From Gammaproteobacteria bacterium (GTDB lineage Bacteria; Pseudomonadota; Gammaproteobacteria; Steroidobacterales; Steroidobacteraceae), in the NCBI GenBank assembly GCA_028293805.1, contig JAQGOC010000083.1, positions 1 to 36,252 on the forward strand: a DNA stretch of 36,252 nt, written 5' to 3'. This document shows, in pieces, positions 3,061 through 31,949 of this stretch. A model generated the notes under the pieces. The model did not search any database. It saw only the letters and a list, made by a program, of their open reading frames with translations, and was not told the origin of the DNA. A program made the translations under genes and the position numbers. Position 1 is the first letter of the stretch. The number at the start of each line of letters is the position of its first letter.

Positions 3061-3069
3061 ACCGGCTTC

Positions 3070-14600: not shown

Positions 14601-17600
14601 CACCGCGTCGAGCGGGTCACTCCGCAAAAGAAGGCCTGTGACAGATTGGTTCATACCGTAGCAAGCGAAGGTCAGATCACCCGTCTCAATCGCGGCGCGG
14701 AAAGTCGCCCGCATGAAATGGATTGCGGTCCCGATCGGCTGCGTCCAGAAGGCAACCGTTCCCGTCGCATGGTAGATCTTGGGCTGGTAGGCGATGAAGG
14801 CGTGCTTCTCGACGAGGTCGCATGCAACCTTGGCGAAACGATACCCGTCACCGTAACGGTGAAAGACCGAGCCGAGGATGGTCCCAAGAAGGGACCAGCC
14901 GTGCGCAGTCGCGCCGCAGATCCCGTGCTGTATGCTGACGTTCACCATGCGGCACGCGAGCAAGCAAAACAACTGAAAGTCCGTCATTGTGGCGGGGGCA
15001 GCAAGGACCGAGAGCACCTGCATGGCGGCCTGCACTTGCGGATCGGTCATCAGCGGCAGATCGATCAGACTCTCGATCGGGCGTCCATCAAGGGTTTGCG
15101 ACACCGTCTCGTATTCGTCCTGGACCTGCTCGATGGTCGTGTGTGCCGGCAGGTCAATGCCGAACAGGCGCAGGCCCGTGAGCGCGCTGTCGATGGCTTG
15201 CGGGTGATCGCGCTTCAATACATGCAAATTGATCTTCAGGCAGGAGGCGTCCGCGAACTCGACGTTTGTAGCCGCGCGCTTTAGCAACTCCACAATCAGT
15301 TGCTCGGCCAATTCGAGGTTACCGCCCAGAAGCTCGCACTCTGCTCGTTCGAGGGACAGGCTGAATGTCAACTCGTGCCGGCTCCCCCAGTCCCGCTCAT
15401 CTAACAGCGCGATGCCCGACGCAAAATACGTGCGGGCCGACGCGTAGGCCGCCGACGCCTTCGCCTTTTGCCCGGTACGCAGGTTGAGTGTCGCGACGTC
15501 CGCCTTCTCAGTGCGGTCGACCAACAGTGCGGTACCCCGATTGAACTGGTTCGCGACCTCGAACAGCTGCTCGGTGAGCTCATCCGGCGTCAGGCTCGCC
15601 AGCAGCACGCGGCCGATGCCTAAGTGAACTTCGGCGCGTTGCATTTCGGGAATCAGCGAATACGCCGCCTGCTGGATTCGGTCGTGCAGGAATTTGTAGT
15701 TATTACCCAGATGGACAACAAGACCAGCGCGGACAGCCTCCCAGAGCGCCGCATGCATCGCTTCCTCTGTTTGCCGGTACACTATGCTGAGCGTGCCGAT
15801 CTCGGCCATGTTGCCCAGGCAGGCGAGCTGCTTCAGGGCATCCTGCGTCCTCAGCGGCAATCGCTTAAGTTTCCGGACCACGAGATCCACCACGTTGTCC
15901 GTATAGTCCTTGGACTCGATACGATCGATGTCCCATACCCAAGCGAGTGCCGCTCGGTCAAACACGAGCAGCTCTTCTTCGGCCAACGTCGTTAAGAACT
16001 GGATCGCGAAGAACGGATTGCCCCCGGTCTTCTCCTGCACTAGCTGCGCCAAGGGCTTCGCGCGCTCGGGCTCGCAGTGCAGAGTATCGGCGATGAGCCG
16101 GCCGACATCGCCGAGCCCGAGCGGCACAAGCACGATCTCGTGCACCCCAACATCGATCTTGCGGATCGCCTCGAGCGTCCCCATGAGTGGATGTGACGGA
16201 CCGACCTCGTTATCCCGATAGGCCCCGACCAACAGGAGGTGCAGCGCCTCAGAGTGTGTCACCAGGTGCTCGAGCAGGTCGAGCGTCGCGCTATCGAGCC
16301 ATTGCAAATCGTCAAGGAATAACGCCAGCGGGTGCTCCTTGCGCGCGAACACGCCGAGGAAGCGCCGGAATATCATCTGGAAACGGTTCTTGGCCTCTTG
16401 CGGTGGCAGGTCCGCGACCCGCGGCTGTTTTCCGACGATATGCTCCAGCTCCGGAACGAGGTTTACGATGAGTTGACCATTCGATCCCAGCGCCTCGCTG
16501 AAGGATTGCCGCCACGGGCCTAACTGCGCCTCGTCCAGACTCAGAAGCGAGAGCACCAGGCTCTGGAAGGCTTGGGCCAACGTGGCGTACGGAATGTCGC
16601 GCTTGTATTGGTCGAATTTGCCGGACGCGAACAGACCCCGCGAGGGGACTAGCACCTTACGCAGCTCGTGCACCACGGAGGACTTGCCGATCCCGGAATA
16701 TCCAGACACCAGCACGAGTTCCGGTGCGCCGTGGGCCACAACGCGGTCGAAACAGGCGAGCAGCGTTTCGATCTCGCGCTGGCGCCCGTACAGCCGCTCC
16801 GGGATCAGCAAACAGTTCGACACGTCACGTGTGCCCAGCTGGAACCGATCGATGCGGCCGTCTGATTCCCATACCGCCAGGCACCGCCGCAGATCGGCCT
16901 CCAAACCGGCGGCGGTCTGGTAGCGCTCCTCGGCAGTCTTGGCGAGGAGCTTCATCGTGATGACCGATAGCACCCCGGGAATTTCTGCGGTCTTCTTGTC
17001 GGGCGGAACAGGCTGCCTGGCAATATGACAGTGTACCCATTCCAGCGGATCGCCGGCGCTGAACGGCAGCCCGCCCGTCAGCATTTCATAGAAGGTGATG
17101 CCAAGAGAGTAGAGATCACTTCGGCAATCGATCGAGCGGTTCATCCGTCCGGTCTGCTCCGGCGCCATGTAGGCGAGCGTTCCGGCGATTGCGCCGGGCG
17201 GCTCGGGGTTGGGGCTCTCGCGGGGCAGGTGGGAGGCAATGCCGAAGCCGGTGAGCCAAACATCGCCGGTTCCCACATCCACCAGGATGTTCGCCGGCTT
17301 GATGTCCTTATGGATGAGTCCGCGCGCATGCGCTTGGCGCAGCGCCCCTGCGAGCGAGATCGCGATGCGCAGAAAGTCCGCTATTCCCAGTGGCCGGCCG
17401 AGCAGCCGATCGAGGACCGCACCTCCGGGATCTTCGAGCACCAGCGCCAAGCGGTTGCGGTGGCGGGAGAGTTCGATTGGGTGCGCCGCCCACGCGGCAT
17501 CAAGGTCGGCTCGGAGCGCGTATTCATGTTCGAGCCGCGTGAGACAACCGAGCGAGCTGTTCTGCGCTGCGACCAGCAGAATTGGCGGCAGCCCCTTGCC

Positions 17601-17669
17601 GGAACCCCGATACAGCGTCAATTCGCCGTCCCGCAACGTTGAAAATGCGTAACTCGAAAGATCCGTCAC
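11700..17669 (-). CDS. Kinase-like/AAA ATPase/GAF/PAS/histidine kinase/receiver hybrid
   Basis: 1989-residue multidomain signalling protein. In order: a protein-kinase-like domain (HKDIKPANIL at 120-129, MAPEQTGR at 168-175); an AAA/MalT-like ATPase (GYSGIGKSS at about 323-331, FLDDLQWLD near 445); a long TPR-like helical region; GAF (about 1290-1430); PAS (about 1470-1580); a histidine kinase with phospho-acceptor H1623 in GGIAHDFNN; the ATPase motifs DTGSGIPP and GDGTGLGLALVHG; and a receiver with D1914 (LTDETMPD) and K1964. The kinase-like domain has GFG in place of DFG (141-143) and no obvious beta-3 lysine, so it may not phosphorylate. GTG 17669 is chosen: a GGGAG lies upstream, and longer frames overlap the receptor gene. 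It starts 29 bp after the receptor stop, so the two probably form an operon. Confidence 0.9.
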   Translation of the reverse strand: MTDLSSYAFSTLRDGELTLYRGSGKGLPPILLVAAQNSSLGCLTRLEHEYALRADLDAAWAAHPIELSRHRNRLALVLEDPGGAVLDRLLGRPLGIADFLRIAISLAGALRQAHARGLIHKDIKPANILVDVGTGDVWLTGFGIASHLPRESPNPEPPGAIAGTLAYMAPEQTGRMNRSIDCRSDLYSLGITFYEMLTGGLPFSAGDPLEWVHCHIARQPVPPDKKTAEIPGVLSVITMKLLAKTAEERYQTAAGLEADLRRCLAVWESDGRIDRFQLGTRDVSNCLLIPERLYGRQREIETLLACFDRVVAHGAPELVLVSGYSGIGKSSVVHELRKVLVPSRGLFASGKFDQYKRDIPYATLAQAFQSLVLSLLSLDEAQLGPWRQSFSEALGSNGQLIVNLVPELEHIVGKQPRVADLPPQEAKNRFQMIFRRFLGVFARKEHPLALFLDDLQWLDSATLDLLEHLVTHSEALHLLLVGAYRDNEVGPSHPLMGTLEAIRKIDVGVHEIVLVPLGLGDVGRLIADTLHCEPERAKPLAQLVQEKTGGNPFFAIQFLTTLAEEELLVFDRAALAWVWDIDRIESKDYTDNVVDLVVRKLKRLPLRTQDALKQLACLGNMAEIGTLSIVYRQTEEAMHAALWEAVRAGLVVHLGNNYKFLHDRIQQAAYSLIPEMQRAEVHLGIGRVLLASLTPDELTEQLFEVANQFNRGTALLVDRTEKADVATLNLRTGQKAKASAAYASARTYFASGIALLDERDWGSRHELTFSLSLERAECELLGGNLELAEQLIVELLKRAATNVEFADASCLKINLHVLKRDHPQAIDSALTGLRLFGIDLPAHTTIEQVQDEYETVSQTLDGRPIESLIDLPLMTDPQVQAAMQVLSVLAAPATMTDFQLFCLLACRMVNVSIQHGICGATAHGWSLLGTILGSVFHRYGDGYRFAKVACDLVEKHAFIAYQPKIYHATGTVAFWTQPIGTAIHFMRATFRAAIETGDLTFACYGMNQSVTGLLLRSDPLDAVWRESEMALDFAREARYGDATDIVISQQRFIATMQGRTTTFSTFSDAQFDEATFEAQLPPDRMIPMVCWYWILKLEARLLSGDYAEALAAAAKVKPFLAVPTPQIQLLDYFYYAALTMAACYENVSAGEQARWRDLLTQHLGQLREWADNNPPTFSDKHALVSAEIARLEGRYGDAMGLYEQAIRSAREHGFVQNEGVAHEVAARFYAARGVESIAHDYLRNARHCYLRWGALGKVRQLDRLNPWLAEESAASVLSATINAPVEQLDVGTVVKASQAVSSEIELGKLIETLMSISVEHAGAERGVLILFRGDAPRIVAEATTGDGNIEVTLRNSAVTPTELIESVLHTALRTREGVILDDASARIPFSADEYVRQKCARSVLCLPLIKQGNLVGALYLENNLTPRVFTSAKLTVLTLLASQAAISLEYVRLYDELQHENSERKRAEQELRRSESYLSEAQRLSRTGSFSWRPSSGEIYWSEETFRIFECDRATTPTVDLIIGQRVHPEDVANWRQVVERATHDGQDFAHEYRLRMPGGRVKHLHVVAHAIRTETGDVDFVGAVKDITEEKWAQAERERLEQQLQQAAKMEAIGRLAGGIAHDFNNILGAILGYGELVQASLREGTAVRRKADQVMQAGTRGKALVDRILAFSRSGMGERLPLRVQSVVEETLELLAGSLPAEVRLERRLDAFDTAVVGDATQFHQVVTNLCTNAVHAMERGGVLTVVLERVDVGERRLLSHGTLAAGRYVRLSVSDTGSGIPPAVFERMFDPFFTTKRVGDGTGLGLALVHGIVADVGGLIDVATQVDMGTTFTIWLPGTDKTALLSPSPAGEVPRGNGETVMIVDDEPALVALAEETLAELGYEPVGFDSSVAALQAFCAEPKRFDLVLTDETMPDLTGTELARELRQLRPEISIILMSGYSSTQLTERAQAAGVIDVLRKPLVRRDIAVPVARALQARNLSTGRA

Positions 17670-17698
17670 GAGTCTTTCTCCCGACGCTCCCGCGATTC

Positions 17699-19939
17699 TT
17701 AAAACTTGAACCGGAACTCCCCTCCAACAGTACGCGGAGCTGCAGCGGACGCGGCGAATCCAGCGGGCCCCTGCTCCTCGAACTCTATGCTGTAATACTT
17801 CTTGTTCGTTAGATTCCTGGCCCACAATCGGATACTCAAAGCTTCTACGCGCCGCGGAGTAAAAGTCGCAGATGCGTTGATAATCGTAAGCGGTCCTTCC
17901 GATATGACGTTGTCTGAGTCCCAATAGAACTTGCTGGAATATACAACATTCGTGTCGAAGGCGAGCTTGCCCACGCCTGCGACATCTACTCCATAGTTCA
18001 GGCCCGCGTCCATGGATTCTCTTGGCGCGCGAGGCAGTACATTGCCCCTGGCATTCATGCTGTCCAGGCCATTTCCGCCAGCCGGTCGTTGGTAAAAATA
18101 CGGGGCGTCGCTGAAGTCGAGAAATTCCGATTGTAAATAGGTTGCGCTCAGCCGCGCCGTGAGTCCTCGAGTTAGAAGCGCGGTACTTTCAACCTCCACA
18201 CCTTGACTCCGCGCCGAACCGGCGTTGATGACAGTCTCAATACCCATCTGCGAGCTTTGTACTTGAGGGTCCTTGACGTCATTGCGAAATACTGCCCCGT
18301 CGAGGCGCAATCGATGGCCGAGCAGTTCCGTTTTCAGACCAAACTCGTAAGTCGTTACGGTCTCGGGGCTAAGTGGCCCCGAACTAATTGAATCGACGTT
18401 ATATGTACCGGACTTAAAGCCCGTGCTGACCAAGGCGTAGGCCATGACATCGGGACTAAAATGGTGATCCAGACTAATCTTGTAAGTCAGTTTCTCGAAG
18501 TCTCGTGTCTGATCGGGAGGCGGCGCGGCCAGGAATGATGGTCCCAGACCCGATAGCGGGCCACCAGGATATGTGTAGATAGTTGTTGAGCCGAATCCGC
18601 GCAGATGATCCTTGTTGTACCGCAGCCCCGCCGTCAAGTTCGTGTCCGGCAATATGGGATACGTAACCTGTCCATAGGGAGCGAACGAATTGAGCCGCTG
18701 CTCTCCTATCTGATCAATGGAATTGATGCCTCCGGCAATGAAGGTATTACCCTGGATATGGATCGGATTGTATCCTCCGAGAGTGTTCAAATAGAAGAAG
18801 CCGCCAATCCATGATATGGGCGCGCCGGGCTTCGACTTTAGCTGCAGCTCCTGCGAGTACTGCTGATCGACAGGACGCAGGTCATAGTTAGCCAGCGGAT
18901 ATGGCGTAAGATCGCCATCAACCATATACGATTCATGTGTCTTTCGCGCCGCGCTTATGCTGGAGAATACGCCAAAACCAAGCTCCTGATCGACGCGAAT
19001 TGACCCGCCATAAGTTTCAGTTGTCACGCCGGGCATGTGATCCAGGTTGATATCGTAAAAGCGTGGTTGGGGCGGCTCAGGGAGCGCCGTTATTGCGCCA
19101 GAATTATCGACCCCGCCGCCGACAGTACCGGCGTAGGGAGTGGTGAGTTCGCCCTGCAGACTATTTTGTTCTGCGTAATAGCCTATGAACTTAACCGTCG
19201 TGCTATCAGTCGGCCTCCATATGATCTTGGAGCGTGCGTTGAAGTAGTAATTGAGATAGGTTTGAGCTCCATTGTAAACATTCCGACCCCAGCCGGATGC
19301 TTGGTTGTATTCGCTCAGCGAGATGTCAGCAGCAAGCTTGTCAGTGATTGGCACCGAAGCGTAGAGCTGTGCAGTGGTTGTGGCGTAGTTCCCATAGCCA
19401 ACCATGCCCTCAATGACCGGGGTGTTTCCCGGATCCCGAGTATAAATTGAGATGACACCCGCACTCGCGTTACGCCCGAAGAGCGTCCCTTGCGGGCCCT
19501 TCAGTATTTCGACGTTATCTACGTTGACGAGATCAAAGAAGCTCGGCGATAAGCGCGAGTAATACACGTCATCAATGTACATTGGAACGCTAGCTTCATT
19601 TCCTAATGTGGCAACCGGGTTGCCGAGCCCGCGCATGAAAACTGTCGCGATGCCACCAATGGCACTGAATTGTAGTGTCGAATCTATCTCGCCCAGATCG
19701 CTGACAACAGTTACACCCGCGGCTCTTAGAGTAGACCCGGTGAAAGCTGTCACCGAAAGGGGCGTATCTTGAATATTCTGGGATCGCTTTTGTGCTGTCA
19801 CAACAATCTCTGCCAGTCGATTGTCTTCGCTTTTTATCGATGCGCTCTGTGTCTGTGCGACTGCCGGCGATGAGGTTGCAATTACGCAAGTCACGATTAA
19901 CCATAGCGTAAGCGCGCAATGTCGAAGTCCCGCAAACAT
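17699..19939 (-). CDS. TonB-dependent outer-membrane receptor
   Basis: 746-residue TonB-dependent receptor. ATG 19939 gives a good signal peptide (residues 1 to about 28, ending AVAQ). The TonB box EIVVTAQKR is at about 44-52. Then come the plug domain (IDDVYYSR, VEILKGPQGTLFGRNASAGV) and a 22-strand-type barrel ending in the terminal aromatic EFRFKF. The frame is open further upstream, but that part is antecedent kinase-gene DNA, not a receptor leader. The style resembles receptors of Caulobacter, sphingomonads and related organisms for carbohydrates or other large substrates. The ligand cannot be told. The hybrid kinase gene directly downstream could sense the same signal. No clear Shine-Dalgarno is visible before the start. 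Confidence 0.9.
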   Translation of the reverse strand: MFAGLRHCALTLWLIVTCVIATSSPAVAQTQSASIKSEDNRLAEIVVTAQKRSQNIQDTPLSVTAFTGSTLRAAGVTVVSDLGEIDSTLQFSAIGGIATVFMRGLGNPVATLGNEASVPMYIDDVYYSRLSPSFFDLVNVDNVEILKGPQGTLFGRNASAGVISIYTRDPGNTPVIEGMVGYGNYATTTAQLYASVPITDKLAADISLSEYNQASGWGRNVYNGAQTYLNYYFNARSKIIWRPTDSTTVKFIGYYAEQNSLQGELTTPYAGTVGGGVDNSGAITALPEPPQPRFYDINLDHMPGVTTETYGGSIRVDQELGFGVFSSISAARKTHESYMVDGDLTPYPLANYDLRPVDQQYSQELQLKSKPGAPISWIGGFFYLNTLGGYNPIHIQGNTFIAGGINSIDQIGEQRLNSFAPYGQVTYPILPDTNLTAGLRYNKDHLRGFGSTTIYTYPGGPLSGLGPSFLAAPPPDQTRDFEKLTYKISLDHHFSPDVMAYALVSTGFKSGTYNVDSISSGPLSPETVTTYEFGLKTELLGHRLRLDGAVFRNDVKDPQVQSSQMGIETVINAGSARSQGVEVESTALLTRGLTARLSATYLQSEFLDFSDAPYFYQRPAGGNGLDSMNARGNVLPRAPRESMDAGLNYGVDVAGVGKLAFDTNVVYSSKFYWDSDNVISEGPLTIINASATFTPRRVEALSIRLWARNLTNKKYYSIEFEEQGPAGFAASAAAPRTVGGEFRFKF

Positions 19940-19952
19940 GGATTCGCGATGG

Positions 19953-20497
19953 TGCTTGCCCGGCTCGATCTCGCTCGACACCGCCTGTGGAGCGTTGACC
20001 ACTGTCCCGACGTCCAGCTGCTCAATGGGTGCATTGATCGTCGCACTCAGCACAGAGGCAGTTGATTCCTCGGCGAGCCCTGGGTTCAGTCGCTCGAGTT
20101 GCCGCAGCTTGCCGAGCACACCCCATCGCCGATAGCAGTGGCGAGCGTTGCGCAGACAGGCGTGGGCAATGCTCTCAAGGCCGCGCGCGGCGTAGGATCG
20201 CGCGGCCACCTCATGGGCCACGCCCGCATTGTGCATGAAACCGTGCTCACGGGCCGATCGAATGGCTTGCTCGTACAGACCCATGGCGTCACCGTGCCGC
20301 CCCTTCGAGGCGGGCGATCGCGGCTGGCACAAGCGCATGCGTGTCGCTGAACCTCCGAGGGTTGTTGCCTATGACAGATTGGTTCATAACGTAGCAAGCG
20401 GAGGTCAGATCACCGGTCTCAATCGCGGCACGGAAAGTCGCCCGCATGAAGTCCATCGCGGCCCGATCGGCTGCGTCCAGAAGGCAACCGCTCCCCG
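19953..20497 (-). pseudogene. Internally deleted second copy of the middle of the hybrid kinase gene
   Basis: 19953-20369 matches 13744-14158 of the intact kinase gene, and 20370-20497 matches about 14637-14765, both at high nucleotide identity. The roughly 480 bp between them are missing, so an internal deletion has joined two parts of the TPR-to-GAF region. Peptides such as GDAMGLYEQAIRSAREHGF and ASVLSATINAPIEQLDVGTV are shared with the intact protein. The copy stops 14 bp before the receptor start codon. It indicates that a second kinase gene once lay upstream of the receptor, or that a repeated receptor-kinase unit recombined. Confidence 0.88.
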
Positions 20498-22046: not shown

Positions 22047-24158
22047 TCAAGGATGGGCTACCGCCAGCACCGAACGTGACCGTCTCAAAACGCAGCGCAA
22101 GGTGATTTCGAGATTCCCCGGATCCAGCGCCGCGAAACTCTCATCCAAAATGACAAGATCCGCACGCTGCAGCAGGGCCCGCGCGATGTAGATGCGGCTC
22201 TTCTCGCCATGCGAAAGCTGCCAGCCACTCTCCCCCACGATCTGATCGAGTCCGCCTGGCATGCGGTGGAGGAGATCACCGAGCCCAAGCTCCCGACAGA
22301 CCGTCTCCGCTTCCGCATAGTCTGCAGCGGTGGCTGGCCATGCTTTGCCCATGAGGAGGTTGAACGCGAGCGTGGCCGACACGATGTGATTCTCATGGAA
22401 CTGGGCAGCGAGCGAAACGCGGCGACGCCACGCCGACTCACCGAGCGTCGCGAGGTCGAGACCACCCAGCAGCAGTACACCGCGCTCCGGCCGGCGCAAG
22501 CCGGCAAGCACGGCCGCGAGTGTCGACTTCCCGCCTCCGGAGGGACCTTCGAGCAGGATGTGATCACCCTTGCGGACAGACAACGTCGCCTCCTCCAGCA
22601 GCGCGCGATCACCCGAGGCGGTCCGAATCGAAAGATGTTTTGCTTCAATCAGCAGCTCATCAGTGCCCGAATCCGCGGCGTCGAAGTCGACGGAGACAGA
22701 CGGATCACCCTCAGCTGCAGGCTGCCCTGCCGCATCCAACATAGGCCTCACTGCTTCGAGTGCGACCGATGCACCTGCAATCTGGGGCAGCGCGTGGACC
22801 AGGTGACGGAGACTCTCAAATGCCAGCAGGATGCCTGCGATCGTCGTTGCCAGACGCGATGTGGGTGTGCCCACGACGAAGAGCCACCCGAACACCGCTG
22901 CAGCGATGACCAGCCAGGCCCGCGGCAGGAGCGAAGCGAGCCACGTCGTAACATCGAAACGCCGGCTATCATTAAGATAGCTGGCCAGACGACGATCCTC
23001 CTGCGCATGCCAGCTGGCTTGGTCTGACTGAATGAGGTGCGTGCGATGGCCCGCCATATTCTCGATTAGCCGATGTGTGAGTTCGCGCCGCCCGACGGTC
23101 CACTCGCGTCTCTCTAACCAGTGCCATCGACAAAGCAACGCGCACGACGCGGAGAGTGCCACCAACAGAATCGGCAGGGCCCAGGTCGAGCCGGCCCAGA
23201 TCAGGATGACTATGGCGGCCACCCATTCGAGCGTTCCGGTCACCACGTCGAGACCGCCTCCAAAACCCAGTGATTCCAGCGCGTGGGATTCATAGATCCG
23301 TCCAAGGAACTGCCCGACACCGGCACCGCGTGCACTCTGCGCATCCAAACCAAGCGCACCCTCGAGTAGCCGACGGCGCAAAAGCGTGCCGAGGCGCAGA
23401 GAGATGATCGAATGCAATCGATCCGCGCCCACCGAGCAAGCAGCAAATGCTGCGAGCAACAACCCCGCGCCAGTCAGTCGACCCGCGTCAAGTCGACCTT
23501 GCAGGGCATCGGCCCCAATCGCGATCCATGCGCAAATCCACGCGATGTGTCCAACAAAATGCACGAGGAAGAATCGCGCGAGTTTGCCAAGCAGTTTCGC
23601 CTCACGAATTTGTTCCCGCAGTGATCCGCATACCGGATGACGTACGAGCCATCCGACGTTGACACGGACGTCGCGGAGTCGCGCACTCAGCAGGCTATGC
23701 CGAACAGGGATGGTAATCGCCAGCGGTGCATTCTGCTCAGCCAGCAAATCGATGTCACCGGAAACCTGTGCCTCTGTGGATCTGGCGAGGGCGGCATGCA
23801 CCTGATCTAGCCCCACCGACCGTAGTCTGTGATCGGGCCCCAGCACATCCAACCGCCGCCGCCGGCTCGCGACGCATACAAGGAATCTGTCGCAAGGTCC
23901 GTCCTGCACACGCAATATTGCAGTCCCAACGGCCCGCAGTGTGGTGATCAGATCGGGATAGGCGGTCTCGCATGCCACTAACTCCAACCCGAGACGCGGA
24001 GCAGTTGCTTCGAGCCACGCGCCAATGGCGGCGGAGTCCGCGAGAGTTGCGATCGATGGACGCGGAACGACTGGCACGGAGCGCGCGTTCGGCACGCAGG
24101 AAAACAAAGCCTCTCCGAGTCGCTCGCCCGGCCACAGCGATGCGGCGAGGTCAGTCAT
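22047..24158 (-). CDS. ABC exporter subunit with degenerate C39-like domain (NHLM-type ATP-binding protein)
   Basis: 703-residue ABC transporter half. ATG 24158 overlaps the TGA of the upstream gene (ATGA), so the two are translationally coupled. Residues 1 to about 150 resemble a C39-like domain without the catalytic Cys/His. Transmembrane helices follow (about 200-460), then the nucleotide-binding domain: Walker A GPSGGGKST at 538-546, signature LSHGE at about 648-652 (not LSGGQ), Walker B LVILDE at about 668-673, and H-loop His at 702. The protein ends one residue after that histidine, about 25-30 residues earlier than usual. It should pair with the C39 subunit as in NHLM-type export, where a peptidase/ATPase, an ATPase and an HlyD protein work together. 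Confidence 0.87.
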   Translation of the reverse strand: MTDLAASLWPGERLGEALFSCVPNARSVPVVPRPSIATLADSAAIGAWLEATAPRLGLELVACETAYPDLITTLRAVGTAILRVQDGPCDRFLVCVASRRRRLDVLGPDHRLRSVGLDQVHAALARSTEAQVSGDIDLLAEQNAPLAITIPVRHSLLSARLRDVRVNVGWLVRHPVCGSLREQIREAKLLGKLARFFLVHFVGHIAWICAWIAIGADALQGRLDAGRLTGAGLLLAAFAACSVGADRLHSIISLRLGTLLRRRLLEGALGLDAQSARGAGVGQFLGRIYESHALESLGFGGGLDVVTGTLEWVAAIVILIWAGSTWALPILLVALSASCALLCRWHWLERREWTVGRRELTHRLIENMAGHRTHLIQSDQASWHAQEDRRLASYLNDSRRFDVTTWLASLLPRAWLVIAAAVFGWLFVVGTPTSRLATTIAGILLAFESLRHLVHALPQIAGASVALEAVRPMLDAAGQPAAEGDPSVSVDFDAADSGTDELLIEAKHLSIRTASGDRALLEEATLSVRKGDHILLEGPSGGGKSTLAAVLAGLRRPERGVLLLGGLDLATLGESAWRRRVSLAAQFHENHIVSATLAFNLLMGKAWPATAADYAEAETVCRELGLGDLLHRMPGGLDQIVGESGWQLSHGEKSRIYIARALLQRADLVILDESFAALDPGNLEITLRCVLRRSRSVLAVAHP

Positions 24159-26788
24159 CGTCTTTCCGTCAGCTCGCCGCGCTCGAGCCTCAATCGTCGC
24201 CAGCCGGGATCGCCCCACAGGGCCGCACGAGCCTTGGCTTCTTGAGCCAAGAGCGCGGTATAGCGCGAATCCGGATTGCGCTTGAGCACGCTCGGCGTTC
24301 CATCTTCGACGACTCGGCCCCCATCAACGACGATGACACGCTCGAGCTCCTGGGAAACCGCAATGTCGTGGGTCACCAGGAGTAAGGTGGCATTCGACCA
24401 GCGCTGGCGCGCGCACGCGAGGAGCCTCGATCGATCCTCCTGCCCAAGTCCGCGAAACGGCTCGTCGAGCAGCACGAGGCGAGCATCCTCTCGACCGAGC
24501 GCTCGACCGAAGCGCACGCGCTGTCCTTCCCCTCCTGATACCAGCGTCCCCCCCTCTCCGAGTGCGGTTTGGAGGCCACGCGGCAAATGCTGGAGCATGC
24601 TGGTCAGACCCGCGTCCGCGACGTTCGCAGCAACACGCGAATCTGATGCGAACGAACCGTAACGGAGGTTCTCGTACAACGACCGATTCCAGATCTGCAC
24701 GGCCGGATCGACCCATGCCGTCTCGCGGCGGAGTTTTGCCAGTACGGGGCCCGTGAGCTCTTGACCATCGAGGCGGCAGGAGCCAGCAGACGGCACGTGC
24801 CAACCCAGTAGCAGACCGAGCAACGAGGACTTGCCAGCGCCGGAGGATCCGACGATGGCGATGTGTTCTCCCGAATCGATTCGCAGGCTTATCTTTTCCA
24901 GCACTGTATGCCCTCCCGCAAGAACATCGACCTCTGCCATCTCAATTGCCACCCCCATCTGATCCCCCGTTGAACGATTGATTGGAGCCGATTGCTCCCC
25001 GGCCTCCGGGATCGCAGCTGTCAACGGCTCCAGTAGTCGCAGAGTGAGGGTGTGAACCTGAGGGTAGCGTCGAACCAGCGAGGCGAGCTCGTGACTGAGC
25101 AGAAGGACCTTGATCCCCCAATAAATCAGCAGCAGAGCCGCAGGATAATCCTGCGCGCCAAAATGCCGACTGACGAGCCAGGCAATGAGTGCGAGCCCAA
25201 CAACCCACTGAGCGGCATTGAGCAACGTGGTGAGCTGCGCAAGACGCGACCCTGCCCTGAACCACTCGACGAGACGATCCTCGTGCGCGAGCCGAAACGA
25301 CTTCTGCGCGCCAAGCGAACGCACGGGCACCAACCCGAGCAGCGCATCGAGGTGGAAGCGCGCCAGAGCTCCACCGTGAGTCGCCCACTTCAGATCCGCA
25401 CCCTTGAGCATTGGAAGCGCGGCAAGCGGCACAAGAAAAGCCAGACACACAGCGACGCATGCCCAGAGCCATGCGCCGTCGAGCCATACGATTGCGGCAG
25501 CTGTGAGCACCAGCTCGAGACTTACGCGCAGCGCCTGTCCCGCAAGATCAGGCAGCTCGCGAAGTTGTGAAGTGCGGTGAGCCCGTTCCGCCATGTCAGA
25601 CGTGAGGCGGCTCCGAAAGTGACGATCAGGAAAACGCGGCAGTCTTTCTTGCACGATGCTGCGCATCCGCACTTCGAGATGGCGCCCCATCCGCGACAGC
25701 AGGACGGCGAGCGAGCCGTCTACACACAATGCCGCGATCAGCACTCCCAGCAAAATCAAACTCGGTACAGCGCGTTGTGAAGCCAGCGTGATCTGCTCGC
25801 CGATATCGAGAAAGCTGTAAAACAGGAGTGCCTCGAGCAGCACAACGATGGTCGCCGTCACGGCCGCGAGAATGATCGCGCGGGGAATCATTCGTCCATC
25901 GGCCTCGATCAAGCGCCAAAGCGTTCGCAGCGGCTGCGGGACGGGAGCAGACAAAGCCGCGGCGAGTTCGGGGGGAAGCAAGGTACGTTCGACCGCGTGA
26001 ACTCCTCGACACCTAACGACGACGGCGCCACGGACGATCACATTCTCTGTATCTGCCTCAACTGGGGCGGACGAAACGTGGCGGTACGAGTCCAGCACTG
26101 CATTCATCTCGCCGGGGATCGAAGCCTTGAAGAGTTGAGTGACCAGGTTTTGCGCCGCAGATCCTTTACGTAGTGCGCCGGCCTCGCACAAAGAATCGGC
26201 GAGGCGGGTGAGCGCATCGAGCTGTCCGAGGCGGCGCCAGTCGGGAACAGCGAGCGCCTGGTCGGTCATCTCGGTGGTCTTAGCGCTCAGAGCAAGTCGA
26301 TGCATGCGCGACTTCAGCGGCGCAATGAATTCATCCCCGGCAGCCCATTCCCGCCATTGCGCCGCCGGAACCTGCATTGAATGCTCATACAGCTCAGACA
26401 GCAGTGTGCGTCGCGTCATCCAACGGCGGCCGACCGCCGGATCCATCACTTCTACCAGCGATCCATGCACGCGCCATATCACGACGAAATGCAGCTCGTG
26501 TGTGGGCAGGCGGACCACTGCGATGCAGGGAAGCGCAGCGGCTTCCGGCAGCAGGAGGTGGTCAGCCGGAAGTAAAATCTGCTCAGCGTCGAGGCCCAGT
26601 GAAACCGCGATCTCCTCGAGCGTGTCGATGGTCGTGCCATCGACATCGGTTTGGCAGGCTTCGCGCAGGCGATCGTAGCTTGCGTGTACGCCAAATCCTT
26701 CCAGCAAACACTTGAGGGTTGCCGGACCGCAGTCCATCGCCGAAGTCTGGAGGACCTCCGGCGCGCGCCAGCGGCGCCGGCTCATCAT
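24155..26788 (-). CDS. C39 peptidase-containing ABC exporter (NHLM-type peptidase/ATP-binding protein)
   Basis: 877-residue peptidase-containing ABC transporter. The C39 cysteine peptidase is at residues 1 to about 130: Q14 (oxyanion), C20 in MDCGPATLKCLL, H100 in ELHFVVIW and D116 in MDPAVG, all present, so the domain should cut double-glycine-type leaders. A linker and six transmembrane helices follow (about 270-580). The nucleotide-binding domain has Walker A GSSGAGKSS (647-655), signature VSGGE (about 750), Walker B LVLLDE (771-776) and H807. It overlaps hlyD by a few bases at its start and the second ABC gene by an ATGA at its end. The natural substrates are very likely the peptides encoded just upstream. 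Confidence 0.93.
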   Translation of the reverse strand: MMSRRRWRAPEVLQTSAMDCGPATLKCLLEGFGVHASYDRLREACQTDVDGTTIDTLEEIAVSLGLDAEQILLPADHLLLPEAAALPCIAVVRLPTHELHFVVIWRVHGSLVEVMDPAVGRRWMTRRTLLSELYEHSMQVPAAQWREWAAGDEFIAPLKSRMHRLALSAKTTEMTDQALAVPDWRRLGQLDALTRLADSLCEAGALRKGSAAQNLVTQLFKASIPGEMNAVLDSYRHVSSAPVEADTENVIVRGAVVVRCRGVHAVERTLLPPELAAALSAPVPQPLRTLWRLIEADGRMIPRAIILAAVTATIVVLLEALLFYSFLDIGEQITLASQRAVPSLILLGVLIAALCVDGSLAVLLSRMGRHLEVRMRSIVQERLPRFPDRHFRSRLTSDMAERAHRTSQLRELPDLAGQALRVSLELVLTAAAIVWLDGAWLWACVAVCLAFLVPLAALPMLKGADLKWATHGGALARFHLDALLGLVPVRSLGAQKSFRLAHEDRLVEWFRAGSRLAQLTTLLNAAQWVVGLALIAWLVSRHFGAQDYPAALLLIYWGIKVLLLSHELASLVRRYPQVHTLTLRLLEPLTAAIPEAGEQSAPINRSTGDQMGVAIEMAEVDVLAGGHTVLEKISLRIDSGEHIAIVGSSGAGKSSLLGLLLGWHVPSAGSCRLDGQELTGPVLAKLRRETAWVDPAVQIWNRSLYENLRYGSFASDSRVAANVADAGLTSMLQHLPRGLQTALGEGGTLVSGGEGQRVRFGRALGREDARLVLLDEPFRGLGQEDRSRLLACARQRWSNATLLLVTHDIAVSQELERVIVVDGGRVVEDGTPSVLKRNPDSRYTALLAQEAKARAALWGDPGWRRLRLERGELTERR

Positions 26789-27963
26789 GGTGAAGGAGCA
26801 GATGCGAGCGCCTGTTCGCCCGCCAACTGACCCAAAGCACGAACCAGGAGCTGCGCAGGCCGAACCTGTTCCACTTCGACATCGACGCTGGCGCTCAATC
26901 CATGCTCCAGCCGCGCGGCAATGGGTGATTGCCGAGTTACATCGAGCTCGACACGGGCTACGCCCTGGCGTCCTTCAGTCGCAACACGAGTCACGGTTGC
27001 CACGACGCTGCCGTATTGACCCCATGGCAGACCTTCGAGACGCAGCCGCGCGTGCTGCCCCGCCCGAATGCGGCCGACGGCGCGACCAGCAGGGAACTCT
27101 GCGATCGCCTGAACTTCTCCAGCCGGTACGATGGTGGCGAGCACAGCTCCATCGCTGACGTAGGCGCCTGGCCTCAGCACCGTGAGATCCCCAACAACGC
27201 CGTCAATCGGTGACCTGATCGTGCGGCGCTGGACCTCGAAGGCGAGCTGGGAAATTTGTGCTGCAGATGTGGCGCACTCTCCCTCTAGAGTCTTCAGTTG
27301 ATGGTGCAATTGTTCAATGGTGCTCAAGCGGTCGCTCTGGCGCGTACTCATCTCCGCCCCAACGCGGGCAACAGCCTGCAGCGCTGTCCGTTCGTTCAGA
27401 CGGTCACGCTCGGCTTCCGAACGCCTTCGCAGATAGTCGACTTGGGAAATAAGGGCCTTTTCCCGCATTTGTTCCAGTCGCTCGATCTCGGTCTCTGCAA
27501 AGCGTGACAGGGGCCGGGCTGCATCTGCCTGGGTGCGGGCTTCGTCTATTGTGGCTCGCTTTGTGAGCCGCTCGGAATCGAGGGTCCTTTCCTGAGCACC
27601 TATCTCGGCTTCGACTGCAGATATTTCACGAACGCGGGCTTCGTGGCGCGCGCGTTCCACGTCGAGCTGCAAGCTGGCAGCGCTGCTGTCCAGGACTACG
27701 AGCGTGTCTCCTTGTCGAACCGCCCTCCCGAGCTGGAGGTGGGAGGCTGTGACTTCGCCAGCAACGGGGGCCTGAATGACATTGCTCGATGCACCCGCTT
27801 CGAGGTGCGCCGCGCGGCTGGTTTCATACAGCGATACACGCGCGAAGCACAGCCAGGCGAGTCCGGCGAGCATAAACGCGGACACCAGGCCGAGCGCCAG
27901 CAAGGGTGCGCGGGCGGATTCGGCTTCCATCGCGCGAAAGGTTCGGGAGAAGGGGGTGGACAT
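26785..27963 (-). CDS. HlyD-family secretion adaptor (NHLM-type)
   Basis: 392-residue periplasmic adaptor. One N-terminal membrane helix (about residues 20-43, LLALGLVSAFMLAGLAWLCF) is followed by a lipoyl-like half (VIQAPVAGEVTASHLQLGRA), a long coiled-coil hairpin (about 85-235), the second lipoyl half (RTIRSPIDGVVGDLTVLRPG) and a beta-barrel domain. It would bridge the two ABC subunits to the outer membrane. Its stop overlaps the start of the C39 exporter gene, showing operon structure. It begins 86 bp after the last micropeptide gene, with a strong hairpin in that gap. Length and domain order are normal. Confidence 0.92.
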   Translation of the reverse strand: MSTPFSRTFRAMEAESARAPLLALGLVSAFMLAGLAWLCFARVSLYETSRAAHLEAGASSNVIQAPVAGEVTASHLQLGRAVRQGDTLVVLDSSAASLQLDVERARHEARVREISAVEAEIGAQERTLDSERLTKRATIDEARTQADAARPLSRFAETEIERLEQMREKALISQVDYLRRRSEAERDRLNERTALQAVARVGAEMSTRQSDRLSTIEQLHHQLKTLEGECATSAAQISQLAFEVQRRTIRSPIDGVVGDLTVLRPGAYVSDGAVLATIVPAGEVQAIAEFPAGRAVGRIRAGQHARLRLEGLPWGQYGSVVATVTRVATEGRQGVARVELDVTRQSPIAARLEHGLSASVDVEVEQVRPAQLLVRALGQLAGEQALASAPSP

Positions 27964-28006: not shown

Positions 28007-28035
28007 GTCCTGCCGGGAGAGTGTCCCGGCAGGAC
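28007..28035 (-). terminator. Perfect 12-bp hairpin between the peptide genes and hlyD
   Basis: GTCCTGCCGGGA and TCCCGGCAGGAC form a perfect 12-bp stem with a 5-nt loop, 13 bp after the last peptide stop and 43 bp before the hlyD start. No T-run follows in the direction of transcription. It is more likely an mRNA-stabilising or partial-termination hairpin that raises peptide over exporter expression. The structure is seen; its effect is inferred. Confidence 0.65.
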
Positions 28036-28048
28036 GCCTTGAGCGGAT

Positions 28049-28099
28049 TCAGCCCTGTCCCTTGTGTCCGCCCGCTTTCACTTTCGTCTTGGTCTTCAT
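28049..28099 (-). CDS. Micropeptide 6 (MKTKTKVKAGGHKGQG)
   Basis: 16-residue peptide, last of the array and nearest to the exporter genes. It shares MK-x-K-T-x-x-K-A-G-G with its paralogues. After the GG only HKGQG remains. The first 33 nt are identical to micropeptide 3. The upstream AGAAAGCA is also shared with micropeptide 3, but the stronger AGGAG seen there is changed, so translation may be weaker. A C39 peptidase could cut after GG, but the 11-residue leader is shorter than known ones. Confidence 0.8.
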   Translation of the reverse strand: MKTKTKVKAGGHKGQG

Positions 28100-28115
28100 T
28101 GCTTTCTGCGGCAGG

Positions 28116-28166
28116 TCAGCCCGGGCCCTTGGCGCCACCAGCCTTCAAGTTGGTCTTGATCTTCAT
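28116..28166 (-). CDS. Micropeptide 5 (MKIKTNLKAGGAKGPG)
   Basis: 16-residue peptide, near-identical to micropeptide 2 (one residue differs, V to A after GG; the other base changes are silent). AGGAG lies 8 bp upstream of its ATG, inside the tail of micropeptide 4, and the two are in the same frame. It may therefore be made alone or as the C-terminal part of a 37-residue fusion. The following gene starts 16 bp after its stop, the same spacing as between micropeptides 2 and 3. Confidence 0.82.
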   Translation of the reverse strand: MKIKTNLKAGGAKGPG

Positions 28167-28229
28167 TTGAGTGCTCCTGTGTTGGGGCGGCTTGCGGCCG
28201 CCCGCCTTCAGAGTGGATCTGATTTTCAT
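28116..28229 (-). CDS. Micropeptide 4, reading through into micropeptide 5
   Basis: Begins MKIRSTLKAGGRKPPQ and continues HRSTQ directly into the start of micropeptide 5 without a stop, giving a 37-codon frame with two KAGG motifs. Comparison with micropeptide 1 shows the intergenic spacer is 2 bp longer and the stop codon (TAG, overlapping the AGGAG of the next gene) has become CAG. No good ribosome binding site is visible before it. It could be a tandem precursor giving two products or a decaying copy. Confidence 0.65.
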   Translation of the reverse strand: MKIRSTLKAGGRKPPQHRSTQMKIKTNLKAGGAKGPG

Positions 28230-28240
28230 GCCGTATCTGC

Positions 28241-28288
28241 TTAGCCGGGGTGGTATCCGCCCGCTTTCACTTTCGTCTTGGTCTTCAT
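28241..28288 (-). CDS. Micropeptide 3 (MKTKTKVKAGGYHPG)
   Basis: 15-residue peptide with AGGAG 9 bp before the ATG. It keeps the constant front MKTKTKVKAGG and has only YHPG after it. Compared with micropeptide 6, the front 33 nt are identical while the tail differs in every residue but the last glycine. Such a constant front with a variable tail is the pattern of precursor families whose front is recognised by shared machinery. Confidence 0.83.
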   Translation of the reverse strand: MKTKTKVKAGGYHPG

Positions 28289-28304
28289 TGCTTTCTCCTG
28301 AGGT

Positions 28305-28355
28305 TTAGCCCGGCCCCTTGACGCCGCCAGCCTTCAAGTTGGTCTTGATCTTCAT
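28305..28355 (-). CDS. Micropeptide 2 (MKIKTNLKAGGVKGPG)
   Basis: 16-residue peptide with AGGAG 8 bp before the ATG. That AGGAG overlaps the TAG stop of micropeptide 1. Lysine-rich front, GG, then VKGPG. Paralogue of micropeptide 5. No cysteine, serine or aromatic residue is available, so common lanthipeptide-type chemistry on this peptide is unlikely. The conserved lysines, threonine and asparagine remain as possible modification or recognition points. Confidence 0.83.
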   Translation of the reverse strand: MKIKTNLKAGGVKGPG

Positions 28356-28365
28356 GGTGTGTCTC

Positions 28366-28416
28366 CTAGCCGATCCGGATTCGCGGGCCGGCCTTGATCT
28401 GCGTTCTCACTTTCAT
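28366..28416 (-). CDS. Micropeptide 1 (MKVRTQIKAGPRIRIG)
   Basis: First of the array, 16 residues, with GGAG 6 bp before the ATG. It differs from the others in having AGP in place of AGG and a tail alternating Arg and Ile (PRIRIG). Loss of the second glycine would disfavour standard double-glycine cleavage, so it may be processed differently or not at all. Its promoter must lie in the 203-bp gap shared with the divergent peptidase gene. Confidence 0.78.
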   Translation of the reverse strand: MKVRTQIKAGPRIRIG

Positions 28417-28619: not shown

Positions 28620-31600
28620 ATGAGGTATCTCTGTCTTGCCGCTGCCGTGTCGGCGGCGGCTACTTTGTTGCTCTGCAAAACGGCGGCTGCCGCACTCTCT
28701 CCGGCCCTGCTCCAGCTTGCCCAAGGAGAGCAGGCAGATGTCATCGTGATCATGCGGGATCAGATCGACAGCACACCCGCCACACGAAGCTGGCGTGCCG
28801 CGCGCACTTCGGCGGTTGACGCCGCTCAGGGCGGCGTGGTTGCGCGCCTGCGTGAAATGAGGGCCCAGAAGATTGGCAAATTCAGGCTGATCAACGCGCT
28901 GTCGGCAAAGGTCTCCCGGGAACAGGCTGTGGAGTTGGCCGCGAATCCACTCGTGCAGGCGGTAGTGCCAGACGCCGTGATGCGCGCGCCCCGCCACACG
29001 CCAATGAGGAGGGCATCCCTCCCCTTGGCCATCGGCTCTGCAAGCAATCTTTGTGGGACCCTGGAGCCGGAGGCTTTGCAGCTCACCAATACGGCGTTTT
29101 TGGATTCCCAGGCGTCACAGGCGCAGAGCGTCATCGATGGCAACGGCAAGACGGTGACCGGGCGTGGGGTCAAAGTTGCCTTCCTCGCCGATGGTATCGA
29201 TCCGAACAACCAGGGATTCATCCGCGCGGACGGCTCGAAGGTATTTGTCGATTACAAGGATTTCTCTGGCGACCCGGCCGGCACGCCCACCGGAGGCGCG
29301 GAGGCATTCGGCGACGCCAGCTCCATCGCGGCGCAAGACATGCCCAATGGCAAGCCGCTCATATTCGACATTAGCGCCCAGTCCATTCCGGGACGCCTGC
29401 CTTCCCCCTGCCGGATTCGTATTCGAGGCGTTGCGCCGGGTGCATCGCTCGTGGGCCTGAAGATCTATTCATCGCTCGGTTATACGAACGAGTCGAGTTT
29501 CATCCGCGGGATCGAATACGCCGTACTCGATGCCGACGTTGATGTCATCAACGAATCATTCGCCGGAAATTTCTATCCCGATCGCCAGGACGACCCGGTC
29601 ACGCTGGCGAGTGCCTGGGCGGTGCGGGCCGGTGTGACCGTCGTGACCAGTACCGGTGATGCCGGTACTGCGGGCACGCTGGGCGATCCCTCGACGAGCC
29701 CCGCCGTGATTGCAGTCGGCGCCAGCACTTCATTTCGCGCTTACGCCCAGCTTGGCGGTTTGGGCATCGAGCCACTCGAATCCCTGGGCTATCTCAGCAA
29801 CAACATATCATCGCTGAGCTCGGGAGGTTTTGCGCAGCTCAGTGCCCGCACTGTCGACATCGTTGCCCCTGGGGATGTCGGTTGGGCGCTGTGTTCTACG
29901 AATGTCAAACTTTATCAGGCCTGCGGTGATTTCAATGGCAACCCATCTGCCTTTCAACTATTCGGCGGAACGAGTCAATCCACTCCGTTCACCTCGGGCG
30001 CTGCAGCGCTCGTGATTCAGGCCTATCGCAGCACGCATCATGGCGCGGACCCTTCACCCGCACTCGTGAAGAGAATTCTGATGAGCACGGCGACAGACCT
30101 CCGGGCTCCTGCCTCGGAGCAGGGCGCCGGCCTCATCAACACGCTGGCCGCGGTGAAGGCTGCTCTGGCCATCGCCGATGAGCAGGGCGTGCCGGCCCGG
30201 CGTGGGGACTCAGTCATCATGCAGCCGACCAGCGTAACGGTTGTCGATGACCCGGGCTCGAGCCAGGTTGCTGAAATTGCGCTCACCAACACCGGCACCT
30301 CCATGAAACACGTCGTGCCGCATCTGCTGACACTGAATAAGCCTCTTGCAGGCAACACTCTGAGTCTGAGTCTGAAGCCCGGCGCAACAGCAGCGACGGT
30401 GAGACGAACGTTCATCGTGCCCGCCGGCGCCGAGCACCTGGACGCGGCAATCGCCTATCAGAACGACATCGCATCCATCGCTCTCGTCGATTTGCAACTG
30501 ATCGATCCTCAAGGCCGGATCGCAGCGTATTCGCTGCCTCAGGGGGTAGGTAACGGGTACGGACACGTAGACGTAGTCTCCCCTACTCCGGGCCAATGGA
30601 CGGCGATCGTCTCGACACCACCCGCGGTGAGTCCCGTCAGCTATACGGGCCCTGTGAAGTTCAGCTGGTCTGTTCAACGTTGGATCAGCTTCGGAGCGGT
30701 GTCGCCGGCGACACTTGATCTCCCGCCGGGGGTTAGCAAGTCCTTCAACGTACGTTTTCGTATGCCAGCGAATGCCGGCGACCGCGCTGCGGCGATACGG
30801 TTTGAAGGTACGGACGGCAATGGGCTGCGCGCATCTGTTCCGATATCGGTACGCTCGCTCATCGCCGTAGATGCAGGCGGCGGCACGTTCGTCGGAGAGC
30901 TCACCGGTGGCAACGGGCGCTCATTCGCCGGCCCGACACAAAATTTCGAGTTCGACGTGCCTCGCGGGGCGAGGAACCTCGACCTCACGGTCGATATCGC
31001 GGACAACGGATACGCGTTGCAGGGATTCCTCATCGATCCCCATGGTCTGCCGTTGAGCGTGCAGCCGAATCTCGATCCGACGGGATCCGCTGCCGAATAT
31101 GGGCTGCGGCTTTTGCGCCGGGAGCCTGAGCCGGGTCGATGGCGGTTCACCCTGCTGCAAAACTACAATTCGTCGGGCGAGCGCACATCGCTGCCGTTTC
31201 AGGGGCGCCTCTCCTTTAAAGAGTCAGGTGTGACTGCCTCGGGACTGCCGGATCGTGCGAACATCAAGCTCGCGGCTGGCCGCCCCGTTGATGCGTCAGT
31301 CCGCGTCACGAACAGTGGGCCCACGACGCTCGCGTACTTCGTCGACGCACGGCGAGACGCAGTTGTCACCGCGAGCCTCGCCCCCAAACCGCAATGTGCC
31401 GTCGCCCCCTCTTGTGCGCAGTACTACATTCCGCCGGCGACCGGCGGCGTGGTGTTCGTAGCGCATTCGGACCGCCCCATCGACATGGACGCGCTTCCGG
31501 AAAGCGGCTTCTTCCTGGGCATCACCAACTCACCGGATCTCCTCGGTCATGAGGTCGCGCCCGGCACGTTGGTGGCGTCACTGTTTGCACCGGAGATCCC

Positions 31601-31949
31601 CTATGGACCGTGGGGACAATACCCCGCCTTTGTCGGGCCGTTTGGCCGCGAAGGGGCGCCGGTCGAGCCCATCGATACGGCCGCGTTCATCGTCTATCAG
31701 CCATTTGACCCCGCGGTGACATCCGACCGCGGTAACAAATGGCTCGATCTCATGACCGGTACCAACACCTATGCTCCGCTGGTACTGGCGCCGGGTCAGA
31801 CGGGCACTATTCGTGTGAGGATCACACCTGATGGCTCGCAGGCCGGGAAGCGCGTATCTGGCAATCTCTACGTGGAGACATATAACGACGCGGTGCTCAC
31901 CGGTGACGAGGTCGCGCGCATCCCCTACACGTACACCGTCACACCTTAG
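28620..31949 (+). CDS. Large secreted subtilase-fold serine peptidase, sedolisin-like active site
   Basis: 1109 residues from ATG 28620 (earlier in-frame starts lie in the promoter gap). Signal peptide MRYLCLAAAVSAAATLLLCK (residues 1 to about 24). An I9-like propeptide (about 38-122, ending LVQAVVPDAVM) precedes the peptidase domain (about 180-575). Ser452 is in GGTSQSTPFTSG. The usual HGTHVAG is replaced by EAFGDASSIAAQ, giving E228 and D232 spaced as in sedolisins. The oxyanion region reads TSTGDAG (D347), and ADGID holds D191. About 500 residues of beta-rich, Ig/Fn3-like domains follow. It is divergent from the peptide array and may trim, activate or degrade the exported peptides, or be immunity-related. 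It ends 6 bp from the stop of the convergent regulator gene. Confidence 0.88.
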   Translation: MRYLCLAAAVSAAATLLLCKTAAAALSPALLQLAQGEQADVIVIMRDQIDSTPATRSWRAARTSAVDAAQGGVVARLREMRAQKIGKFRLINALSAKVSREQAVELAANPLVQAVVPDAVMRAPRHTPMRRASLPLAIGSASNLCGTLEPEALQLTNTAFLDSQASQAQSVIDGNGKTVTGRGVKVAFLADGIDPNNQGFIRADGSKVFVDYKDFSGDPAGTPTGGAEAFGDASSIAAQDMPNGKPLIFDISAQSIPGRLPSPCRIRIRGVAPGASLVGLKIYSSLGYTNESSFIRGIEYAVLDADVDVINESFAGNFYPDRQDDPVTLASAWAVRAGVTVVTSTGDAGTAGTLGDPSTSPAVIAVGASTSFRAYAQLGGLGIEPLESLGYLSNNISSLSSGGFAQLSARTVDIVAPGDVGWALCSTNVKLYQACGDFNGNPSAFQLFGGTSQSTPFTSGAAALVIQAYRSTHHGADPSPALVKRILMSTATDLRAPASEQGAGLINTLAAVKAALAIADEQGVPARRGDSVIMQPTSVTVVDDPGSSQVAEIALTNTGTSMKHVVPHLLTLNKPLAGNTLSLSLKPGATAATVRRTFIVPAGAEHLDAAIAYQNDIASIALVDLQLIDPQGRIAAYSLPQGVGNGYGHVDVVSPTPGQWTAIVSTPPAVSPVSYTGPVKFSWSVQRWISFGAVSPATLDLPPGVSKSFNVRFRMPANAGDRAAAIRFEGTDGNGLRASVPISVRSLIAVDAGGGTFVGELTGGNGRSFAGPTQNFEFDVPRGARNLDLTVDIADNGYALQGFLIDPHGLPLSVQPNLDPTGSAAEYGLRLLRREPEPGRWRFTLLQNYNSSGERTSLPFQGRLSFKESGVTASGLPDRANIKLAAGRPVDASVRVTNSGPTTLAYFVDARRDAVVTASLAPKPQCAVAPSCAQYYIPPATGGVVFVAHSDRPIDMDALPESGFFLGITNSPDLLGHEVAPGTLVASLFAPEIPYGPWGQYPAFVGPFGREGAPVEPIDTAAFIVYQPFDPAVTSDRGNKWLDLMTGTNTYAPLVLAPGQTGTIRVRITPDGSQAGKRVSGNLYVETYNDAVLTGDEVARIPYTYTVTP

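Follow-up and report, generated by a model that had tools for sequence, protein, structure and literature searches.

A putative ten-residue leader ending in Ala-Gly in an array of very short peptide genes beside a C39 peptidase-ABC exporter

What are six open reading frames of 15-16 residues each doing beside a peptidase-containing exporter? The window, a 36,252-nucleotide stretch of a Steroidobacteraceae contig (JAQGOC010000083.1), carries these MKxKTxxKAG-type frames on its minus strand at 28049-28416, between hlyD and a divergent S8 protease gene (Table 1). The array probably consists of six minimal precursors for the adjacent exporter. The first ten residues of each precursor would constitute the entire leader, the C39 domain would bind this leader and cut after A-G, and peptides of about 5-6 residues would leave the cell through the two ABC subunits, the HlyD adaptor and an outer-membrane channel.

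Table 1. Coordinates of the array, the hairpin that follows it and the exporter genes, numbered from the first letter of the window. The proposed cut lies between the fifth and sixth columns.
Feature	Coordinates	Strand	Sequence	Proposed leader	Proposed core	Remarks
Precursor 1	28366..28416	-	MKVRTQIKAGPRIRIG	MKVRTQIKAG	PRIRIG	GGAG upstream
Precursor 2	28305..28355	-	MKIKTNLKAGGVKGPG	MKIKTNLKAG	GVKGPG	AGGAG upstream
Precursor 3	28241..28288	-	MKTKTKVKAGGYHPG	MKTKTKVKAG	GYHPG	AGGAG upstream
Precursor 4	28116..28229	-	MKIRSTLKAGGRKPPQHRSTQ	MKIRSTLKAG	GRKPPQHRSTQ	Lacks both an own stop and a clear ribosome binding site
Precursor 5	28116..28166	-	MKIKTNLKAGGAKGPG	MKIKTNLKAG	GAKGPG	Own start with AGGAG
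Precursor 6	28049..28099	-	MKTKTKVKAGGHKGQG	MKTKTKVKAG	GHKGQG	Weak ribosome binding site
12-bp hairpin	28007..28035	-				Between array and hlyD; no U run
hlyD-type periplasmic adaptor	26785..27963	-				PF13437, 2e-15; 392 aa
C39 peptidase-ABC exporter subunit	24155..26788	-				PF03412, 4.3e-23; PF00005, 1.2e-21; 877 aa
Second ABC subunit	22047..24158 (ATG) or to 24218 (GTG)	-				PF00005, 9.5e-22; 703 or 723 aa

All six starts and five own stops that an earlier note had read from this DNA are present at their minus-strand coordinates, and the ribosome binding sites that it saw before most frames are clear in four of the six, the site before frame 6 having decayed. Frame 4 runs in frame into frame 5 to give 37 aa in total with two copies of the motif. 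Frames 2-3 and 5-6 form a 103-nt duplication (90% identical). Within the DNA of the ten front codons, one duplicate pair has a single change and the other has none; the tails of the pairs differ, by V/A in one and by YHPG/HKGQG in the other. Five small frames in the window carry the broad motif compared with 0.65 expected from 20 shuffles, counting frames 4 and 5 once for their common stop. The hairpin region between the array and hlyD has a predicted folding energy of -33.7 kcal/mol over 89 nt (z = -2.63). It is a possible attenuator or mRNA stabiliser and may determine how much peptide is made relative to the exporter.

Directly after the array, on the same strand and in the order previously described, come hlyD, the C39-ABC gene and the second ABC gene, whose ATG at 24158 overlaps the stop of the preceding gene. 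The C39-ABC protein has the domain arrangement of a PCAT, with an N-terminal C39 domain containing Cys, His and Asp followed by ABC transmembrane and ATPase parts (Pfam and alignments), the ABC_membrane match lying barely at the Pfam cut-off (28 bits). The N-terminal region of the second ABC protein resembles C39 (hhalign probability 83, E = 8.4e-6, for a profile of the window protein and six relatives), and its relative in genome G351 matches the C39 model itself at 26.3 bits. By these profile comparisons, the second ABC subunit carries a degenerate C39-like N-terminal domain; used as a query against 60 relatives, this part matched only the source genome and G038. We take HlyD, C39-ABC and ABC proteins at this locus to be the same kind of set as the NHLM export set, and to this extent the original label of an NHLM-type exporter holds. 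Strict NHLM membership does not, because scores with the NCBIfam models TIGR03794, TIGR03796 and TIGR03797 are far below the cut-offs (40 of 156.2 bits for HlyD, 167.6 of 853.3 for C39-ABC and 106.7 of 709.4 for the second ABC protein), and the degenerate C39-like domain is a further difference from that set. As a separate observation, hlyD-like frames in G647 and the family of G351 (L045, L055, L057, L059, L060 and L061) extend over ~180-240 codons between stops, about half of the 392 aa in the window, and have an N-terminus (M-A-T-P-F) that is similar by eye to that of the window hlyD.

The front of the peptides recurs in few genomes. A 29-base degenerate DNA pattern was used to query overlapping genome sets, with one base relaxed for the class-level set. 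It matched 2 of 296 genomes at the level of the order (the source genome six times and G264 twice), 3 of 369 at the level of the class (the source, G351 with an array of six, and G388) and 1 of 319 at the level of the phylum (the source again). All six matches in the source genome fall in the array, and a reversed control pattern gave none there and none among the matches listed for the genome sets. The G388 match sits within a 1588-aa frame and was set aside as chance. Both of the other pattern-positive genomes hold the exporter at near full length (47% identical in G264 and 43% in G351), and in G351 the array is on contig C170 and the exporter on C76 (5.5 kb). The earlier note had let its proposal stand or fall with conservation of the pattern beside related exporters, and the outcome favours it. 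Searches of open-access literature listed no paper on this leader motif. A hypothetical peptide family with a similar KVKTNVKAG stretch and an NHNE tail is set aside, because plasmid records queried with it had no counterpart.

Variation within the arrays points to translation. The variable motif sites at codon positions 1/2/3 number 4/3/9 in the window, 2/1/6 in G351 and 4/5/8 in G1012, the last array having little third-position bias by itself. In the pooled set, third positions account for 23 of 42 variable sites (one-sided binomial p = 0.0034), a value that is only a guide because the copies within an array are related. These counts bear on the idea that what merely resembles genes here is a DNA or RNA element, such as a regulatory repeat or attenuator. 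Near-identical DNA in the two duplicated blocks, the tiny size of the frames and the strong downstream hairpin would suit such an element, but both between copies and between genomes the frames vary at third codon positions and retain their amino acids, and many frames in several genomes have ribosome binding sites, the frames of G1018 and of the second G1009 locus (G1009b) being without a clear one. A regulatory repeat is rejected on the codon pattern, and we consider any DNA or RNA element of this kind extremely improbable.

Searching from the exporter instead of the peptides gives a wider set of loci. Relatives of the exporter occur in 4 of 296 genomes of the order (the source, G264, G038 and G132; E to 1e-20), in 3 of 369 of the class (the source, G351 and G647; E to 1e-20) and in 7 of 42 of the G351 family (G351, G1008, G1009 with two loci, G1010, G1011, G1012 and G1018; E to 1e-80). 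The genus of G264 (1 of 14 genomes) and the family of G647 (1 of 4) yielded only G264 and G647 themselves. One plasmid among 72,556 plasmid records, from Piscinibacter gummiphilus (SBD 7-3), has a relative, and phage records gave no exporter match at E 1e-30. Two further candidates found with the single exporter protein as query, L003 and L004, were rejected for matches limited to the ATPase part. Not counting the source locus, G351 (which the peptide pattern had already revealed) and the exporter of G132, which is inactive, there are 11 further exporter loci. Motif frames are present at eight of them (two in G264, one each in G038, G647 and G1018, three in G1008, one and two at the loci of G1009, and six in G1012), a degenerate form occurs at one (the plasmid) and the remaining two have none. 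The G038 frame has Ser in place of Thr, and the G647 frame is on the strand opposite to the exporter.

Over 13 stretches (the window and 12 loci), 28 small frames match a broad regular expression, compared with 2.85 in shuffles; the plasmid stretch contributes none, and 11 of the 28 come from the window and the G351 array, which were known beforehand. Loci with a single match are weak taken alone, as 0.05-0.4 chance matches are expected per locus. The exporter might serve other cargo while the small frames spread along with it as bystanders, and no motif frame was found on the exporter contigs of G1010 and G1011 (6.8 and 8.1 kb) or in the 19 kb around the inactive exporter of G132. Against this, the exporter is present in both genomes other than the source that have a pattern-positive array, although in one of them array and exporter are on separate contigs, and we regard bystander frames as very unlikely. 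Linkage, co-occurrence in other genomes and the codon pattern all bear out the initial proposal that very short precursor-like genes are tied to a C39 exporter.

The comparison of 29 precursors from nine genomes, 16 short and 13 long, defines the shared element. The window consensus M-K-[V/I/T]-[K/R]-[T/S]-x-[V/L/I]-K-A-G broadens across the family to [M/L]-x-[V/T]-x-T-x-[V/I/T]-[K/R/H]-A-G. Position -10 is Met in all 16 short forms and Leu or Ile in the 13 long forms; -8 is V/T/I/A; at -7, 22 of the 29 have K/R/H and the other seven T/N/S; at -6, 27 have Thr and two have Ser; at -4, 21 have V/I/L and eight have T; and -3 is R/K/H. Each long precursor, from G1008, G1009, G1012 or G1018, has 47-75 aa, with the motif after 6-42 residues (a leader of 16-52) and followed by widely differing cores of 6-59 residues, among which three of the six in G1012 start like FYTWFCAG. 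Because the same ten residues precede such different cores, the motif is most simply read as a leader, with the window peptides as its minimal form. The Met of the short forms stands at the Leu site of the long forms, and the short gene therefore starts at the motif. One long precursor has MNSTTQ...RAANN repeats ahead of the motif, so that its front part looks like a spacer. In an exporter tree built without outgroup rows and without G132, the short-precursor loci of G647 and G351 group with G1008, G1009b, G1012 and G1018 (long) and G1011 (none) at 100/100. Since this well supported clade unites exporters of both precursor lengths, the N-terminal extension is probably dispensable for exporters of this type.

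The scanned precursors matched no convincing Pfam or NCBIfam family, with the exception of one 75-aa frame. In this frame (L058:389-616, plus strand, G1009), LPTKTGLRAG is followed directly by a glutaredoxin-like domain (PF00462, E = 1.4e-5), an arrangement one might expect if the exporter also carried a small redox protein. Another precursor (L057:6057-6236, plus strand, G1008) has a tandem motif-like stretch, NKRTVRAG and then IHTSTAIRAG, slightly like window frames 4-5.

Where the leader would be cut can also be approached from this comparison. Ala at -2 and Gly at -1 are present in 29 of 29 precursors, an invariance that is partly due to selection with motifs requiring A-G (the plasmid candidate has L-G), and the next residue is Gly in only nine of 29. 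For this reason cleavage most likely occurs after A-G. Cleavage after G-G, as first considered, is rejected, since the second Gly is not conserved and only A-G at positions 9-10 is invariant. The precursors also lack the other marks of double-glycine leaders: there is no GG, GA or GS end, position -7 is polar or basic, and the 16 short forms are too short to have a -12. The original caution correctly noted a short leader that lacks hydrophobic spacing, and the relatives indicate a different type of leader instead of an absent one. If the whole 15-16-residue cationic peptide were the product, exported or active uncut, its front would be part of the active molecule (for example, binding membranes or nucleic acids). 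The Lys-rich front and the unusually short leader without the usual C39 spacing are in keeping with this, but it is difficult to reconcile with the 13 longer precursors, which place the same ten residues after 6-42 others and before very different cores, or with the retention of the C39 Cys and His, and it seems to us an unlikely account.

The C39 domain would therefore need to recognise a leader of unusual composition, and its groove differs from that of PCAT1. Positions Q14, C20, H100 and D116 are invariant in alignments of the exporter family; C20 and H100 are assigned as catalytic by alignment to PCAT1 C21 and H99, and Q14 and D116 presumably have catalytic roles as well. The Cys and His are intact in 13 of 14 exporters, G132 having Ser for Cys and Arg for His. 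In PCAT1, leader residues L(-7) and L(-12) are described as packing on A55 and I59 (PMC6959990). The position of I59 is Glu in all 13 active exporters and also in inactive G132, and that of A55 is Ile in the family, Phe in the plasmid protein and Val in G132; the comparison outside the family is a single control C39 domain, from G264, which has Leu and Ala at the A55 and I59 positions. We propose that a charge pairing between the basic residue at -7 and this Glu takes the place of the hydrophobic knot.

Leader processing by known enzymes provides a measure of how different this element is. A review describes LahT150 as leaving leaders without hydrophobic residues at -4, -7 and -12 uncut and such proteases as cutting after GG, GA or GS (PMC10885120); for this reason, the motif appears to be a new class of leader, served by an exporter of known type. 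The locus resembles PCAT/AMS systems (PCAT1, LahT and ComA) in its C39 domain fused to an ABC exporter, with Cys and His aligned to those of PCAT1, and in combining a constant leader and variable cores with several precursors per transporter. It differs from them in the ten-residue leader of the short forms and the A-G end in place of GG, GA or GS (PMC10885120), and in a polar or basic -7, nothing at -12 and Glu where PCAT1 has I59 (PMC6959990). Hypervariable cores are shared with the NHLP and Nif11 families, but NHLP leaders are described as long and ending in Gly-Gly (PMC2887384). Biarylitides likewise come from an extremely short ribosomal precursor, described as the smallest reported, but they are cross-linked by a P450 (PMC12951456).

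A more specific model, which we advance tentatively and at somewhat less than even chances, is a separate class of C39 signal in which the ten residues dock as an extended strand, in place of the known amphipathic helix, with their basic residues in an acidic groove, and in which genes of 14-17 codons encode secreted signals of 4-7 residues. An extended strand is suggested over a helix from -10 to -4 because beta-branched residues alternate at -8, -6 and -4. A signal short enough to be the whole leader would mean that a 14-17-codon gene can make a secreted peptide of 4-7 residues.

The plasmid relative raises the question of whether the products are modified. On NZ_CP136338.1, the exporter (42% identical) adjoins a second ABC gene, and its neighbours encode MoeB, a 57-aa hypothetical protein, a DUF692 protein, a carbamoyltransferase and a TfuA-like protein, with MoaD/ThiS across the record start. 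The 57-aa protein contains LKAKVNVKLG followed by PIPFIAGLSNKARQKPW. With a profile of 24 distinct leaders that excluded the plasmid, LKAKVNVKLG is by far the best 10-mer of the protein, and its score is reached by 0 of 29,575 control 10-mers (from long open frames of six loci, in all six frames) and by 14 of 5000 shuffles of the protein. It has other residues in place of Thr(-6) and Ala(-2) and can therefore count as no more than a degenerate relative. According to a preprint, YcaO-TfuA, MNIO and carbamoyltransferase enzymes produce a RiPP by acting on the SNKEWQE motif of StdA (PMC13174530). The core of the plasmid candidate contains SNK, which fits this motif. The resemblance to std-type RiPPs extends to the DUF692, TfuA-like and carbamoyltransferase genes, but the std cluster as described encodes an MFS-family permease (PMC13174530), an incomplete gene table lists no YcaO near the plasmid cluster, and no such enzymes were seen at the window locus. 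Through this RiPP-like cluster, the exporter type is connected with peptide natural products.

The peptides of the window could then be RiPP or antimicrobial precursors that are matured before export by enzymes encoded elsewhere, a reading that is compatible with the proposed leader and differs in the product. Besides the Piscinibacter cluster, the Cys residues in cores of several longer relatives speak for it. However, the window cores have no Cys, and Ser or Thr occurs only in frame 4; many known RiPP modifications cannot act on peptides without Cys, Ser and Thr. No modifying enzyme was recognised among the nine window proteins scanned, two of which have no family match. Maturation by enzymes encoded elsewhere is a serious alternative that we nevertheless consider rather unlikely, and on the same grounds of core composition and gene content the window products are probably unmodified, which is a guess.

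If the leader is cut after A-G as preferred here, the window would yield PRIRIG, GVKGPG, GYHPG, GAKGPG, GHKGQG and a longer product from frame 4, and G351 would yield RTHVKIA, FIKF, DLPWLR, DLPMF, MKLPT and an 18-mer. Our best guess, from their small size, many variants and variable tails alone, is that these products are secreted signal-like oligopeptides; they may also be antimicrobial or metal-binding. No recurrent receptor or regulator lies beside the peptides in five scanned stretches (the window, L005, L010, L011 and L027), and receptors may be unlinked.

Three features of the surrounding window are recorded in their own right. The divergent gene directly beside the array (28620-31949, plus strand) encodes a 1109-aa S8 subtilase (PF00082), and no S8 gene is among the scanned neighbours of L005, L010, L011 and L027. 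A TonB-dependent receptor frame (17699-20338, minus strand) opens with ~130 residues that by eye repeat part of a 2074-aa kinase-like protein (11700-17924); the repeated part precedes a new signal-peptide-like stretch and reads as a partial gene duplication fused in frame. At 2806-3434, a short transposase-like HTH frame on the plus strand overlaps, by eye, an oppositely oriented esterase-like frame at its end, as if an insertion-element remnant had cut the esterase-like gene.

If the proposed ten-residue leader is real, the array would represent a widespread bacterial secretion route with its leader reduced to a minimum, and its motif would provide a sequence rule for finding genes of fewer than 20-30 codons that normal annotation misses. 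C39 substrate recognition would extend beyond the helix model of PCAT1 and LahT, with a specific charge pairing predicted between groove and leader, and the leader would offer a compact export tag for short peptides. Should the more tentative strand-docking class also prove true, these bacteria would possess families of tiny, fast-diversifying secreted signal oligopeptides.
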